32,506 bases of DNA from contig JAFOHE010000354.1 of assembly GCA_017421975.1 (NCBI GenBank), positions 1-32,506 on the forward strand. Direction: 5' to 3'. Under the pieces are notes generated by a model that ran no database searches, had not been told where the DNA came from, and saw only the letters and a program-made list of their open reading frames with translations. Shown piece by piece: positions 9,532-31,617 of this stretch (position 1 is the stretch's first letter; each line of letters starts with the position of its first letter). Both the position numbers and the translations under genes were made by a program. Source of the stretch: Pseudomonadota bacterium. GTDB lineage: Bacteria; Myxococcota_A; Bradymonadia; UBA4248.

Positions 9532-9632
9532 CGCAAACCTATGCCGCGGCATACGGTTTGCGGTGTCCTATGCGCCCCTGGTAGGGACGCATACGGACAC
9601 CTGCTCCGGCTATTGCCTCACGGCAATACGCC
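9532..9632 (-). repeat. Hairpin cluster B: three tandem nested palindromes
   Basis: Three abutting hairpins oriented so that the unpaired base is C on the plus strand. H5 9532-9562: outer CGCAAACC/GGTTTGCG, unpaired C9554, inner TATGCCG/CGGCATA with no loop. H6 9562-9601: outer GGTGTCC/GGACACC, unpaired C9594, inner TATGCG/CGCATA, with a further CCCT/AGGG pairing in the loop. H7 9608-9632: outer GGC/GCC, unpaired C9629, inner TATTGCC/GGCAATA. The geometry is the same as cluster A on the opposite strand. The cluster lies in a divergent intergenic region upstream of both neighbours, which argues against a terminator role. Confidence 0.88.
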
Positions 9633-11439: not shown

Positions 11440-11583
11440 CACGCGCCGTATGGGCGAAGACCGCTTGAGGGCGAGCCCATAGGCGCGTGAAGCTGGCGTA
11501 TGGTGAGTCATGGGAGACATGCGGACATGCGTCTCCCATGACTCACCATAGCCAAGCTGGCGAGGCCGTATCGCAGATAGGCC
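11440..11583 (+). repeat. Hairpin cluster C: three tandem nested palindromes
   Basis: H8 11440-11489: outer CACGCGCC/GGCGCGTG, unpaired G11448, inner TATGGGC/GCCCATA, 19-base loop. H9 11491-11558: outer AGCT plus GGC pairing with GCC and AGCT (one extra A on the 3' side), unpaired G11498, and a long perfect inner stem of 20 bp (11499-11518/11531-11550). H10 11564-11583: outer GGCC/GGCC, unpaired G11568, inner TATC/GATA, loop GCA. The cluster fills the space between the convergent flippase and acyl-CoA dehydrogenase genes. Confidence 0.88.
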
Positions 11584-13683: not shown

Positions 13684-15609
13684 TTAGAGGAAGAAATCGT
13701 CATCGTCATCCGACGAAGGCGGACGAATGGCTTCTTTAGGTGCCACATACGTATTTGGACCGACAGGTTTAGATGAAATGGGAAAACCACTGTCATCGTC
13801 AAAAACAGCCTGAGGCGAAGGTCGATACGAGAAAGGCGGTACAGAAGGCGGTTTAGCTGACGCAGCCTGGGAAGACACTTTATTCAACCCGGAATTGGAA
13901 TTGGCCTTGGGAATCGGCGGAGGCGTACCCACACCGGAAGGTGTTGAGGGTTGTTTTGGAATTGGCGGTACCTGATCGAAAAAGCCATCAGGAATAACAT
14001 TTTCAAGAACCGTCTTAGGCCCCAATTCGTCATCATCAAAATCATCGTGTCCCAAAAGGTCATCGGCCTCTTTTTCTTCAGCCGAAGTTGGCGGAGCCAT
14101 CAAGAGGAGATCTGTACTTGGACGCGGAACGCTTTCTTCATCATTGACTGAATCCGATTTTATGAGACGCGGCGAATCCACGGGTCCGGACGAAGCAGGC
14201 GCACCGGCTGCGGCTGCAGAAGCTGCGGCAGCTGCGGCGATGTCACGCAAAATCTCTTCCCTTGATTGGATCTTAGTCGCGCAATTCTCATCGTCTTCGT
14301 CTTCGTCTTCATCGTAGGAACGTTTGGTATCAAACGCTTCATCAGGAATAGGCTCATTGAGCATAGACGCCTTAGTGACCTTAGGCATGGCTGGCATAGA
14401 AGATCGCGAAGACGAGAGGGGTTTCGGCATAACCGCACGCTTCGGCGCAACAGGTGACAAAGCTTCCGGAACGTATTCACGAACGGAATGCATACGTACT
14501 GGCTGTGCTGCGGAAGCTGCAGAAGCTGCATTGCTGCTCATTGAAGAGGGCATGGGTGCCATAGCATTTCTCGGCATTCCAACCATTTTTCGCGCCTGTG
14601 GTGCCACCGGCATGGGCTGACCCACCGGCATCGGTTGACCCACCGGCATCGGTTGACCCACCGGCATCGGCTGACCCATCGGCATCGGCTGACCCATTGG
14701 CATGGGTTGACCCATTGGCATCGGCTGACCCATCGGCATGGGTTGACCCATTGGCATCGGCTGACCCATCGGCGGTCTCTGAGCACCGGCCTGAGCCGGC
14801 ATAGACTGGCTCGTATAACGCGGTTGGGCTCCGGAGCTGTCTTCCTGTTCGATGCAAACAGTCACAACCGTCACGTTATCCTTACCACCAGCTTTTAGTG
14901 CAAGACCAATCAGCGCATTGCACGCCTCTGTGAGATTCGGGGCATTGGATATCGCTTGCGCGATAAGCGGTTCGCTGACGATATCGCTTAAGCCGTCCGA
15001 ACACATCATATAGATATCGCCCTGCTCACGCTTCACTTCCTTGACTTCGACTTCAACATTATCCTTCAAACCGATCGCACGAAGAATAACATTCTTATTG
15101 GCGAATTTTGGAATATCTTCCGGCTTGAGTTCGCCCTTGTCAAGCAAGTGATTCATGAGGGAATGGTCACGGCTCATTTGCTGAATCTGGCCATTGCGGA
15201 CACGATAAATTCTCGAATCTCCAACCCACGCGAGAACTAAACCATGCGGCGCATTATATATGGCCGTCACTGTCGTTCCCATACCTTCCATTGTACGATC
15301 TTTGCAGGACTGGATATAAACGCGTTCATTTGCAAACTTAATTGCATTGATGAGCACGTTTGCTTCGTAGCTCACGTTCGGATTTGTCGGATACATAAAC
15401 TTGAATCCGGGCTGTTTTGCCACATCACAAACGAATTGAGAAACGTGTTTCACGCAGAGCGTGGATGCGACCTCTCCCGAAGCATGTCCGCCCATGCCGT
15501 CAGCCAAAACATAAAGTCCATGGCTGGGAACCATGATAAAATTGTCTTCATTATTTGTGCGCTTGAGCCCGACATCCGTCTTAGCTGCCCACGCGAGCCG
15601 CGTTGCCAT
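13684..15609 (-). CDS. PP2C-type Ser/Thr protein phosphatase with a repeat-rich tail
   Basis: A 641-residue protein. Residues 1-250 are a complete PP2C catalytic domain that removes phosphate from Ser/Thr with two metal ions. Motifs are TNNEDN (18-23, metal Asp22), LADGMGGHASGEVAS (35-49, Asp37), VGDSRIYR, DHSLMNHL, MCSDGLSD and GGKDNVT, so all metal ligands appear present. The ~390-residue tail is low-complexity: nine (M/V)GQPMP units, alanine runs, acidic runs (DEDEDEDDEN) and proline-rich stretches. No membrane helix is seen, so it is probably cytosolic. The tail may bind partners or be a phosphorylation target (inference). The ATG is preceded by AGAGG. An FHA protein occurs elsewhere in the window. 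Confidence 0.93.
   Translation of the reverse strand: MATRLAWAAKTDVGLKRTNNEDNFIMVPSHGLYVLADGMGGHASGEVASTLCVKHVSQFVCDVAKQPGFKFMYPTNPNVSYEANVLINAIKFANERVYIQSCKDRTMEGMGTTVTAIYNAPHGLVLAWVGDSRIYRVRNGQIQQMSRDHSLMNHLLDKGELKPEDIPKFANKNVILRAIGLKDNVEVEVKEVKREQGDIYMMCSDGLSDIVSEPLIAQAISNAPNLTEACNALIGLALKAGGKDNVTVVTVCIEQEDSSGAQPRYTSQSMPAQAGAQRPPMGQPMPMGQPMPMGQPMPMGQPMPMGQPMPMGQPMPVGQPMPVGQPMPVGQPMPVAPQARKMVGMPRNAMAPMPSSMSSNAASAASAAQPVRMHSVREYVPEALSPVAPKRAVMPKPLSSSRSSMPAMPKVTKASMLNEPIPDEAFDTKRSYDEDEDEDDENCATKIQSREEILRDIAAAAAASAAAAGAPASSGPVDSPRLIKSDSVNDEESVPRPSTDLLLMAPPTSAEEKEADDLLGHDDFDDDELGPKTVLENVIPDGFFDQVPPIPKQPSTPSGVGTPPPIPKANSNSGLNKVSSQAASAKPPSVPPFSYRPSPQAVFDDDSGFPISSKPVGPNTYVAPKEAIRPPSSDDDDDFFL
14610..14771 (-). 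repeat. Nine tandem 18-bp repeats inside the PP2C gene
   Basis: Nine units of 18 bp encode (M/V)GQPMP, six with Met first and three with Val first. Copies differ mainly at silent GGC/GGT and TTG/CTG-type positions and at the Met/Val codon. The unit is a multiple of three, so copy-number change would keep the frame. Confidence 0.92.
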
Positions 15610-16744: not shown

Positions 16745-16774
16745 TTTCTGCGAAATGAGATATACTTCTATAAT
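16745..16774 (+). promoter_or_regulatory. Candidate promoter of the secreted protein gene
   Basis: A perfect -10 TATAAT at 16769-16774, 76 bp before the ATG at 16850. The -35 (TTTCTG, 16745-16750, 18-base spacer) is weak. Confidence 0.45.
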
Positions 16775-16849
16775 TGTGTTTACTCGCCTGCAATCTTCTC
16801 AGGCTCGCTTCTCTGACGCATCACGCACGTTATCTTACGGAGTAATGCC

Positions 16850-17608
16850 ATGTCAATGCTACATAAAATGATAACAACGACCCTAACGCTCGCTCTCGGC
16901 ATGACAACCGTTTTGTCCCTCGCTTCCGCCGGCAGCATCGAAAATGGTAAATATACGAGCAATTTAGGCTACTCTTTCATGCCTCCTGACGGCTGGATCA
17001 AATATGATGCCTCGACATCCACTACGCTGCCTGGCATTCCCACAAATCTCAAAGAAATCAGTTTCAAACGTTTCGACACCGTCTTTTTCCAGCCTTCCAA
17101 AAATTATTCCGCCGACAATCTCGCTGCCGATACACAGCGCGTCGAGGAACGCAAAAAAGCAATCATCGCCGGTTCCCGTCCCGCACCCGGTACGTCGGAT
17201 GGGGATGCACTCGACAAATCTGAGGCCGATGCGCGAAAAGATGCCCTGCCGCAATCACCGGAATTTGCAGCAAGCATCGCCATCATGGTCGTGCAACACG
17301 CGCCATCCAACACCAATACCGATACGGCCAACATGTATGCCGAAAAATTCAAACAAGATATCGGTAGCTTCGTGGCTTCCAACGCCAACGTCGTCATCAA
17401 AAAATCCACATCCGATGAAATTCACGGCAAAAAAGCCCTGCTCTTCTCTATGGATGTGAAGAATGACAGCCGTGATCTCCACATTGATCAGACAGTCATC
17501 ACCAATCAAGATAAATCCATTGTCGTCACATGCATCAGCGATAACAATGAAACCATGCCAGATAAGAATTGGTGCATGAAAGCGACAAACTCCATCCACT
17601 TTAACTAG
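16850..17608 (+). CDS. Secreted protein of unknown function
   Basis: A 252-residue protein with a Sec signal peptide (hydrophobic core TTTLTLALGMTTVLSLASAG, cleavage likely after ASA). The mature start YTSNLGYSFMPPDGWIKYDAS resembles the opening strand of PsbP/DcrB-like domains, a tentative link only. A charged Ala/Asp/Lys region in the middle is followed by a second beta-alpha region with DQTVITNQDKSIVVTC near the end. Two Cys near the C-terminus may form a disulphide. The ATG is preceded by GGAG. It is placed between rpsT and the peptidase gene and appears monocistronic. Confidence 0.78.
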   Translation: MSMLHKMITTTLTLALGMTTVLSLASAGSIENGKYTSNLGYSFMPPDGWIKYDASTSTTLPGIPTNLKEISFKRFDTVFFQPSKNYSADNLAADTQRVEERKKAIIAGSRPAPGTSDGDALDKSEADARKDALPQSPEFAASIAIMVVQHAPSNTNTDTANMYAEKFKQDIGSFVASNANVVIKKSTSDEIHGKKALLFSMDVKNDSRDLHIDQTVITNQDKSIVVTCISDNNETMPDKNWCMKATNSIHFN

Positions 17609-20145: not shown

Positions 20146-20264
20146 GGGGGCGTTGCGGGGGGGTTTCCCCCGCACGGGGGGTAGCGGCGTATGCCCGTTG
20201 TGTTGGGAACGCACCATCTGTCTTTCTACGCAACGGGCATAGCCGCGCAGGGGGGTTCCCCCCC
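20146..20264 (+). repeat. Hairpin D with G/C-rich flanking hairpins
   Basis: H11 20184-20246: outer GCGGC/GCCGC, unpaired G20189, 11-bp inner stem TATGCCCGTTG/CAACGGGCATA, 30-base loop. A G-run/C-run hairpin lies before it (20154-20174) and another after it (20250-20264). The outer arms, including GGGGGTAGCGGC upstream and GCCGCGCAGGGGG downstream, match those of hairpin E read on the other strand, but the inner stems differ. The segment GGCGTTGC followed by a G-run at about 20149-20163 resembles the outer end of the window-terminal inverted repeat. Confidence 0.85.
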
Positions 20265-20303
20265 ACAAAACCCATCGTCGATTTTTTGCCACGAAGACGC
20301 ATC

Positions 20304-21956
20304 ATGTTCCGATTTATCCGACTTCTTCAGATGCTTGGCATCGCCACACTCCTCCTGCTTCACAATCCGTCCGAAAGCAGCGCCAAACCGCATGCTGATT
20401 CGACGACGTCGAGTGCGAAGGCAAAACCCGACAAAAAAAAGAAGTCCAAAGCACACAACGATACGCCGGCACTCAGTCCGGAAGCGCGGCAAAAAAAGCT
20501 CGTCGAAGCCAGCCGCGCCTGTATCGAAGCCAACCAAAGGCAGCTGTACGCAAGCGCACGCGCCTATTGTGAAGAAGCGTTATCCCTGACAGACGAAGGT
20601 TCGGAGGCCTTCATCCATCTGGCTCTGGCATGCATTTTCCTCTACAACAAGACAGATGAACCGCAAAAGGCACTCGTTCTGCTCGACAAACTCATCGCAT
20701 CCAACAAAGATGAGCGCGTGGCCTATAACCTCTGCTTTGACCGTGGCATGACGCTCATTCGTCTCCATCGGTACGAAGATGCCCTTCAGACGCTCAATGC
20801 CTGCCCGCCGGACGAGGCGGATCAAGGCAAACACGACGGTGCCATTGCAGAACTCTACATGATGATGGGCGATGCCGAAAAAGCCGCCGCCGCTTATGAC
20901 GAAGCCCTCGCCTACGATAATAAAAATAGCTTTGCCTGGTTCGGTGCCATGGCCGCCCGAATGCGTGCCGGGCGTTCTGCTGATGCGAAAAAGGCCTTCC
21001 TCAACGGGGTTGCCGTCGATCCGACACTCGCCTTTTTCGACGTCTCCTTTTTCGAACCCGAAGGCGAGACGTATTTTCACCGTGCGCTTCTCATGCTCTT
21101 TTCGCAACGCCACGCAGATGCCATCCACGACCTCGAAGAAAATCTCAAATACGAACGACGACAGCCTTACCGCGATATCGCCCAAGCCCTGCTCGATATG
21201 CTTCGCTCTCCCGATACGCACGATCCACGCCTGGCCACATGGCCCGTCCTGCTCAATAAAGTCACTGCCGTCGCCATCAACAAAGACGCACATTACCTGG
21301 CGTATGCCGATCAAAATACGGCCACCGTCTGGCTTTTTGACACCGATGCCGGACAACTCTCATGTCGCATCACAAACATCTCAAACGTCAAAAGCATGGC
21401 CTTTGATGATCAGGACACGCTTCACATTCTGACGCGCACGCACCGCTATGCCCTCTCGCCCAACTCTACCGACTACTACCTCTACGCAAACAGTCCGGCA
21501 ACCGTCGCATGGAACACGCTCTCCGACAACGGAAAATATATCATTGGCATAAACGGCCTTGATCAGCTCGTCAAGGCGCCATTTCTCGCACCTGACCACT
21601 TTGAAACCATCGCCAAAATTCCCACGGAAACGCAAAATGTCCTCCTTTCCGACGACGCCAAAACGGCCTTTCTCGAAACAAAACGCATCAACATTCTGAC
21701 CGATATCGAAAATGACCGCATCGTCTCTACACCCGCGGCCACAAAATTCATCCTCGGCATGGCGACGAGCCAAAACCGCTTTGCCATCGCACTCACGCAC
21801 GGTATCTATATTTTCGATGCGGAAAATCACCCAATCGCCCGCCTCGAACCACATCCCAACGAACCCTTCTCTGTCATGGCCTTCGATCCGACGGGCCGTT
21901 ATCTGCTCACGCTCAACGGCACCATTGCCGAAGTCTGGGACACACATATTTTCTGA
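20304..21956 (+). CDS. TPR and beta-propeller-like exported protein
   Basis: A 550-residue protein with a signal sequence or anchor (LLQMLGIATLLLL), then a Lys/Ser-rich linker. Residues ~65-290 contain several TPR helix pairs (for example the AYDEALAYDNKNSFAWFGA unit). Residues ~310-550 look like WD40/beta-propeller blades (AINKDAHYLAYADQNTATVWLFDT; FDPTGRYLLTLNGTIAEVWDT). No enzyme motif is present; a scaffold role is likely. The ATG at 20304 is preferred over an upstream ATG at 20286 because it gives a better signal peptide. Hairpins D and E flank the gene in opposite orientation. Confidence 0.83.
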   Translation: MFRFIRLLQMLGIATLLLLHNPSESSAKPHADSTTSSAKAKPDKKKKSKAHNDTPALSPEARQKKLVEASRACIEANQRQLYASARAYCEEALSLTDEGSEAFIHLALACIFLYNKTDEPQKALVLLDKLIASNKDERVAYNLCFDRGMTLIRLHRYEDALQTLNACPPDEADQGKHDGAIAELYMMMGDAEKAAAAYDEALAYDNKNSFAWFGAMAARMRAGRSADAKKAFLNGVAVDPTLAFFDVSFFEPEGETYFHRALLMLFSQRHADAIHDLEENLKYERRQPYRDIAQALLDMLRSPDTHDPRLATWPVLLNKVTAVAINKDAHYLAYADQNTATVWLFDTDAGQLSCRITNISNVKSMAFDDQDTLHILTRTHRYALSPNSTDYYLYANSPATVAWNTLSDNGKYIIGINGLDQLVKAPFLAPDHFETIAKIPTETQNVLLSDDAKTAFLETKRINILTDIENDRIVSTPAATKFILGMATSQNRFAIALTHGIYIFDAENHPIARLEPHPNEPFSVMAFDPTGRYLLTLNGTIAEVWDTHIF

Positions 21957-21960
21957 TGGT

Positions 21961-22036
21961 GGGGGAAGTCTCCCCCTACGCGGCTATTTTTCTGTAGGAA
22001 CGTTTCATGAAACGTCCCTACAGAAAAATACGCCGC
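21961..22036 (-). repeat. Hairpin E with flanking G/C hairpin
   Basis: H12 21980-22036: outer GCGGC/GCCGC, unpaired C22031, 14-bp inner stem (21985-21998/22017-22030), and a loop that is itself a 16-base perfect palindrome (22000-22015). A small hairpin GGGGGA/TCCCCC stands at 21961-21976. On the minus strand the outer arms equal those of hairpin D. It lies between two plus-strand genes but in minus orientation, so its direction does not follow transcription. Confidence 0.87.
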
Positions 22037-22181
22037 TACCCCCTCGTTCTCCGTCATGGATCACGCGTATAAACGCGCGTATTCTTTCAATTCGTTCTAT
22101 CTATGCTTCATTTATGACTCAGGCATCCCATGCGGGTTCTTCACCACACACGCGCCTGAATAACTTTGGATTTTGGAAACC

Positions 22182-31481: not shown

Positions 31482-31617
31482 GGGCTATGCGCCGATTGGC
31501 GCATACGCCCCGCGCATCGGCCTATGCGCCGTCGGCGCATACGGCCTCTGGACGCCCGCTATTTGCAGATGGTACAGTCGCGCTGTCCGCACGTCTGTAC
31601 CATCCGCAAATACGCGG
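31482..31617 (-). repeat. Hairpin cluster F: three tandem nested palindromes
   Basis: H13 31482-31510: outer GGGC/GCCC, unpaired C31506, inner TATGCGCC/GGCGCATA. H14 31519-31546: outer GGCC/GGCC, unpaired C31542, inner stem of nine pairs with one loop base. H15 31556-31617: outer CCGC/GCGG, unpaired C31613, inner TATTTGC/GCAAATA extended past one mismatch by a further ten pairs (31568-31577/31595-31604). Inner stems of H13/H14 share TATGCG with H2 and H6; H15 shares TATTTGC with H3. Confidence 0.88.

Follow-up and report, generated by a model that had tools for sequence, protein, structure and literature searches.

Two hairpins within a common frame

The DNA analyzed here, hereafter the window, is a stretch of 32,506 nucleotides that carries two complex hairpins with the same flanks, D on the forward strand and E on the reverse strand. 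D opens with an upstream hairpin, TGCGGGGGGG-TTT-CCCCCGCA (20154-20174), a type I leader that most type I copies have. It is followed by a left frame (20176-20188) composed of a G-run (20176-20181) and TAGCGGC (20182-20188), in which GCGGC (20184-20188) is the outer arm, and by one additional G (20189). The inner part (20190-20241) is an 11-bp stem, TATGCCCGTTG/CAACGGGCATA, with arms at 20190-20200 and 20231-20241, a TA at 20190-20191 and a 30-nt loop. The right frame (20242-20255) consists of GCCGCGCA and a second G-run (20250-20255), with GCCGC at 20242-20246 followed by GCA, and this G-run is also part of a downstream hairpin, GGGGGG-TT-CCCCCCC (20250-20264). E has the same plan on the reverse strand: a left frame (22032-22043) with its G-run at 22043-22039 and TAGCGGC (outer arm GCGGC, 22036-22032), the additional G (22031), an inner palindrome TATTTTTCT-GTAGGGACGTTTCATGAAACGTTCCTAC-AGAAAAATA (21985-22030, with TA at 21986-21985), a right frame (21972-21984) of GCCGCGTA and a G-run (21976-21972), with GCCGC at 21984-21980, and a downstream hairpin GGGGGAGACTTCCCCC (21961-21976). 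The two elements differ outside the frame too, where D has the extra upstream hairpin (GCGGGGG..CCCCCGC) and E has a AGAACGAG leader.

The original prediction, made from the sequence of the window, described these flanks correctly, with a G-run, TAGCGGC, an extra G and TAT on the left in element orientation and ATA, GCCGCG(C/T)A and a G-run on the right. It also held for the folds, which confirmed the 11-bp stem and 30-nt loop of D and a palindromic inner part in E that is nearly perfect up to its tip. Compared with shuffled sequences, z-scores were −4.1 (DNA) and −4.5 (RNA) for D and −9.9 (DNA) and −8.2 (RNA) for E, and no shuffle of either element folded equally well. The G between the arm and TAT had been noted as a shared base; it is indeed present in both, and we re-read it as a one-base bulge found at the same spot in every member, with a C-G pair below and a T-A pair above in D and E.

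Size and host range of the hairpin family

The frame common to D and E is not a chance resemblance. In the 3.63-Mb assembly TAGCGGCGTAT occurs 175 times vs 5 times for the reversed pattern, and the class with a GGC outer arm (GGCGTAT...ATAGCC) has 393 matches genome-wide vs 8 for the reversed control. Detailed sampling by regions covered 0.86 Mb of this genome and contained about 80 framed copies including D and E, referred to here as class A, which are defined by the G-rich frame and the outer arm GCGGC. A second class, class B, has the same C-g-TA/TA-G junction with any outer arm; it is common and forms head-to-tail arrays, in which all 30 of 30 neighbors had the same orientation and gaps were mostly 0-12 nt. 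The C-g-TA/TA-G junction was seen in 65 hairpins in the 383 kb that were read in detail, vs 0-4 for each of eight control motif pairs, which were used because reversal keeps hairpins and reversed sequence is therefore an unsuitable control for a junction. The same junction was by far the commonest among hairpins with a single-base bulge in related genomes (118, with 13 for the next type).

Class B hairpins lie at four places in the window: three head-to-tail hairpins with other outer arms at 144-284 on the forward strand, a pair at 9533-9601 on the reverse strand, a pair at 11440-11554 on the forward strand, the second with an 18-bp inner stem, and a triplet at 31482-31617 on the reverse strand. 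The ends of the contig (1-134 and 32366-32498), with class B arrays beside both, form an almost perfect 134-bp inverted repeat, which probably marks an assembly break at a dispersed repeat.

Among the genomes searched, all of them draft MAGs, the hairpin class is confined to one family of Myxococcota. Matches to the GGC class numbered 106-565 in each of seven same-family relatives (7/7), and they were at or near the control level in 50 other genomes searched from the same order, class or phylum. The named relatives are MAGs from gut, rumen and termite (Myxococcales bacterium UBA4248, Proteobacteria RGIG4413 and RGIG7731, uncultured Myxococcales and Cu122P3bin5). Matches in Halopseudomonas, an Acidobacteria MAG and Chitinophaga were set aside, their number being about the chance expectation for that pattern. 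Only two matching stretches were found in a viral collection, both on a single 43-kb contig filed as viral (IMGVR_UViG_3300020112_001123; L194 and L195) that has two class A frames; this contig could belong to a phage of the lineage or be host DNA that was mis-binned.

A constant frame around a free inner stem

The class A frame reads GGGGGTAGCGGC-g-TA ... TA-GCCGCG(T/C)AGGGGG. Across the 77 class A copies whose TA ends are intact, between-copy identity was 94% over the 12+12-nt frame vs 38% over the first 6+6 nt inside it, and the inner part was distinct in 76 of the 77, as expected from the original proposal of unrelated inner palindromes within a common frame. The inner arms thus have no common stem consensus, constancy being limited to the frame and the junction. 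They are nevertheless paired: at inner pairs 1 to 7, 461 of 489 cells (94%) are Watson-Crick, with all four pair types in use, 9 G.T and 8 A.C, vs a shuffled-arm control in which at most 49 of 74-77 were paired at pairs 2 and 3. Inner stems can be up to 27 bp long and include nested repeats.

Some inner parts are related to each other. Four near-identical copies, TTTTNCGAAAGC...GCTTTCGN'AAAA, have C-G, A-T, G-C or T-A at one pair, with both sides changed. The proposed origin of the inner parts was thus borne out insofar as unrelated types occupy one frame, but other types are connected by gradual paired substitutions (TTTTNCGAAAGC, where N is C, A, G or T), and this was the observation that the proposal itself had named as a refutation of pure cassette exchange. 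Mismatches in the copies of this genome showed no significant strand bias (19 G.T vs 11 A.C, p = 0.2), which leaves a gap in the argument for DNA rather than RNA, and an excess of C.A mismatches in the relatives is no general feature, as it stems from one conserved position of the long inner type described below.

The alternative that a palindrome had been inserted into a single TA fared less well. A genome-wide search for empty frames, with the two halves 0-12 nt apart, returned only two coding-like matches, and the shortest frames still hold an inner hairpin of 8-13 nt. Since no empty frame was found, the inner (upper) hairpin is an obligate part of the element rather than an insertion, and the TA boundary most plausibly represents the bulged junction. 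Nesting does occur; the GACGT palindromes involved sit in the loop, and the TA is not their point of entry. The GTAGGGACGTTTCATGAAACGTTCCTAC within E (21994-22021, reverse strand) belongs to a family of palindromes (GGGACGTT..., AGAGACGTG...) seen both inside and outside C-g-TA/TA-G hairpins; some of those scored as outside lie within frames with a mismatched outer arm, and several are clearly free (e.g., L016, L018, L177, L178 and L188). In each of four class A copies, a pair of class B hairpins lies within the inner part, on the other strand. The long inner type, TATGCGCGCAG-[variable palindrome]-CGAGCACATA, accounts for 46 of 68 frames in RGIG7731; RGIG4413 has it in 6 of 41 frames and this genome in 1 of 81. 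It is also found with other outer arms.

Orthologous sites in two species

RGIG7731 (G003) and RGIG4413 were compared site by site, with orthology assigned by anchoring of the flanks, since global alignment is unsuited to rearranged pairs. Ten class A sites were common to the two species, and position and orientation agreed in all ten. At two more sites the class A element is absent in the other species; because contigs were chosen for holding frames, conserved sites are over-represented, which does not affect the agreement at the ten. The inner type was unrelated at 6-7 of the 10 shared sites, as for TTTGCgaaGCAAA vs TGCGCGGAGCCTGAAAGGCGAGCACA at L029/L179. Only one species has a 23-nt apical palindrome at L046/L187, through either gain or loss, and at L050/L204, L062/L035 and L115/L210 the differences are in the loop or are paired changes in the stem.

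Orthologous frames that were kept while the inner part became unrelated support exchange within a common frame, as had been suggested. The intergenic DNA beyond the frame is saturated, and the orthologous frames have no private, site-specific variants in common, so that exchange of the inner part alone and replacement of the whole element look alike.

Loops and genomic position

On the bulge strand, the loops take the form C(GNA)G or C(GNNA)G, with 52 GNA vs 4 TNC (p = 1e-11) and 29 GNNA vs 0 TNNC (p = 4e-9). Loops of the GNA and GNNA type closed by G-C pairs are extraordinarily stable mini-hairpins in DNA (PMC4686876). Class A elements are intergenic in 73 of 83 non-edge copies, in a sample that is 87% coding, and they lie near gene 3′ ends and avoid divergent promoters, where 4 of the 73 are located, compared with 72 of 361 gaps in the background.

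This position, together with the strong folds and covarying stems, would suit a structured RNA or terminator acting at the 3′ ends of genes, with inner stems drifting by compensatory mutation. We tested this reading and regard it as quite unlikely. Class A elements occur in both orientations relative to genes (25 same and 33 opposite in tandem gaps), and G.T pairs, at 9 of 489 cells, are as rare as A.C. RNA hairpins would favor GNRA loops, but on the bulge strand GNYA is the commoner (18 vs 11 GNRA). Furthermore, neither D nor E was called as an intrinsic terminator, the frames seen were followed by A-rich sequence with no T-run, and no Rfam family was matched at the gathering score.

Possible relationship to Y1 transposases

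Genes for IS200-type Y1 transposases (Y1_Tnp) were found in 6 of 8 genomes of the family. G003 (99% complete) and G004, the genome with the most copies, yielded none, and a present-day Y1 driver is therefore not general; these two genomes rule out a Y1 transposase as the sole driver. Of three Y1 proteins from relatives that were scored, two were above the NCBIfam IS200/IS605 cut-off, and all were far below the REP_Tyr_transpos cut-off. A class B hairpin with the C-g-TA/TA-G junction lies within 250 nt of 6 of 14 Y1 genes, in five cases, the gene of this genome included, downstream in gene orientation, vs a background of 10.9% of genes with such a hairpin within 250 nt (from this genome only). 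The distance was set after the first four cases, making the test partly post hoc, and the proximity is suggestive. The sole Y1_Tnp gene found in this genome (L131, 1000-1770) is preceded by a TAGGGCGGGT...ACCCGCCC palindrome, and three C-g-TA/TA-G hairpins start 23 nt after it, a REPtron-like layout.

Interpretation of the hairpin family

D and E belong to a new, lineage-specific form of REP-like repeat that retains its frame and bulged junction, whereas its upper hairpin is replaced or rewritten. Our leading explanation, held with confidence and doubt about evenly balanced, is that the elements function as DNA in the folded, single-stranded state, the bulged junction C-g-TA/TA-G being constant and the upper arm above it free in sequence. 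A putative DNA-binding or DNA-processing protein would recognize the bulged junction and need the upper hairpin only as a structure; if the arm above the junction needs only to be a hairpin, its sequence is free. In E. coli REP elements, TnpA_REP requires the mid-stem bulge, and the upper stem-loop can be swapped, its role being purely structural (PMC8266576); a reader of the TnpA_REP type would by analogy leave the part above the bulge free, as observed. Complementarity of the arms may arise when one arm is copied from the other by template switching during replication, which can yield perfect stems and paired changes (PMC8794818), rather than by slow RNA-type compensation through G.U pairs. 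Inner variants could then pass between dispersed copies by gene-conversion-like exchange with the shared frame as homology, and the presence of one inner type across the frames of a species fits such exchange. An IS200-type Y1 (HUH) transposase may have first spread the elements.

Several other processes would also yield different inner parts in a similar frame. If ectopic gene conversion homogenized ordinary REP-like repeats or replaced them whole, inner part and frame would change together and the frame would merely look constant, and the absence of site-specific variants in orthologous frames, the dominance of one inner type per species and the existence of near-identical dispersed copies are all compatible with such concerted evolution. 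Against it, related inner parts occur together with both leader types (I and II) and with different downstream loops, and inner types are also found with other outer arms, so that we think it rather unlikely. Somewhat less credible still is that a palindromic mobile element entered the single TA of an existing frame and that different cassettes gave D and E. Inner types that differ at orthologous sites, GACGT palindromes found both inside and outside hairpins and the apical palindrome present in only one species at L046/L187 speak for it, but a whole genome in which no frame is empty and the shortest ones hold a hairpin, the paired gradual changes within inner families, and nesting in the loop instead of at the TA have largely refuted cassette insertion as a general mechanism; for the nested GACGT palindromes it is possible. 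A different route to genome-wide cassette exchange, one with no gene cargo, would be a putative ssDNA-hairpin enzyme that targets the C-g-TA/TA-G junction, cuts at TA.TA and swaps the upper hairpin, which we judge improbable, to the same degree as an RNA element. The resemblance to integron attC sites, which are recombination sites of folded single-stranded DNA that leave a base extrahelical and vary in their terminal structure, extends to strand asymmetry and a variable apical part, and attC is recognized via flipped-out bases (PMC8266576). However, RYYYAAC/GTTRRRY (R/L) boxes were absent from the frame and arms of the 88 class A copies read, no gene cassettes lie between neighboring hairpins, whose gaps are mostly a few nucleotides (0-12), and the elements are dispersed rather than clustered; an attC-like function is extremely improbable.

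Comparison with known repeats

Among known repeats, those closest to the D/E family include REP elements and REPtrons with a group 2 TnpA_REP (RAYT), such as the y, z1 and z2 repeats of E. coli, which are likewise high-copy, extragenic, imperfect palindromes with a mid-stem bulge (PMC8266576). In E. coli the bulge is important and nothing specific is needed in the upper stem-loop (PMC8266576), similar to the free upper arm seen here. GTAG, a terminal tag of REP sequences, stands at both stem feet of class A and is absent from class B; IS200/HUH genes occur in most genomes of the family, and two have no Y1 gene. Unlike REP, the arms have no shared consensus and are free in sequence within a G-rich double-hairpin frame, and inner palindromes are replaced at conserved sites. 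The arrays are head-to-tail only, and the alternating orientation of BIMEs was absent from all 30 pairs of class B neighbors.

In palindromic repeats tagged with GTAG/CGTC, too, members of a family differ in their loops and in stem residues that stay complementary (PMC3733652), and the self-complementary loops of GTAG-3 and GTAG-14 (PMC3733652) resemble the inner palindromes of the GTAGGGACG type. In those repeats stems of 6-13 bp define the family (PMC3733652), whereas here only the junction and frame are constant and the inner stems extend to 27 bp, with nested repeats. Mitochondrial double-hairpin or repetitive hairpin-forming elements are similar in being tandem, intergenic, confined to lineages and variable in their loops (PMC2800124), but in the sponge elements the stems are conserved and substitutions fall in the loops (PMC2800124), in contrast to stems that change as pairs in the D/E family. 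Hairpin evolution by template switching (PMC8794818) accounts for perfect arms and multi-base paired changes; it is a mutational process and not an element family, and its action here is our inference.

A known REP family is identified by its stem sequence. In the D/E family the stem is the most variable part, and the bulged junction and frame persist at the same loci across species. The family is therefore a natural experiment in which parts of a hairpin its reader needs, and in whether palindromes are perfect by selection or by copying from arm to arm. Each genome has hundreds of copies and there are several related species, so that counting in pairs of strains can answer the question of selection vs copying.

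Other repeats in this and related genomes

Near-identical hairpin units are arranged in tandem with a 42-nt period in this genome, at L016 (reverse strand, ~16755-16870; G000:C55) and at the contig end of L019 (G000:C80:8080-8174), and an array in a relative (L038, 5289-5440) resembles them. At L178 (8900-9200) GACGTG palindromes alternate with TATTGGCC hairpins at about 68 nt per unit. Within the window, an 18-nt coding tandem repeat (MPMGQP) was observed at 14604-14809 in a gene for a PP2C-type phosphatase.
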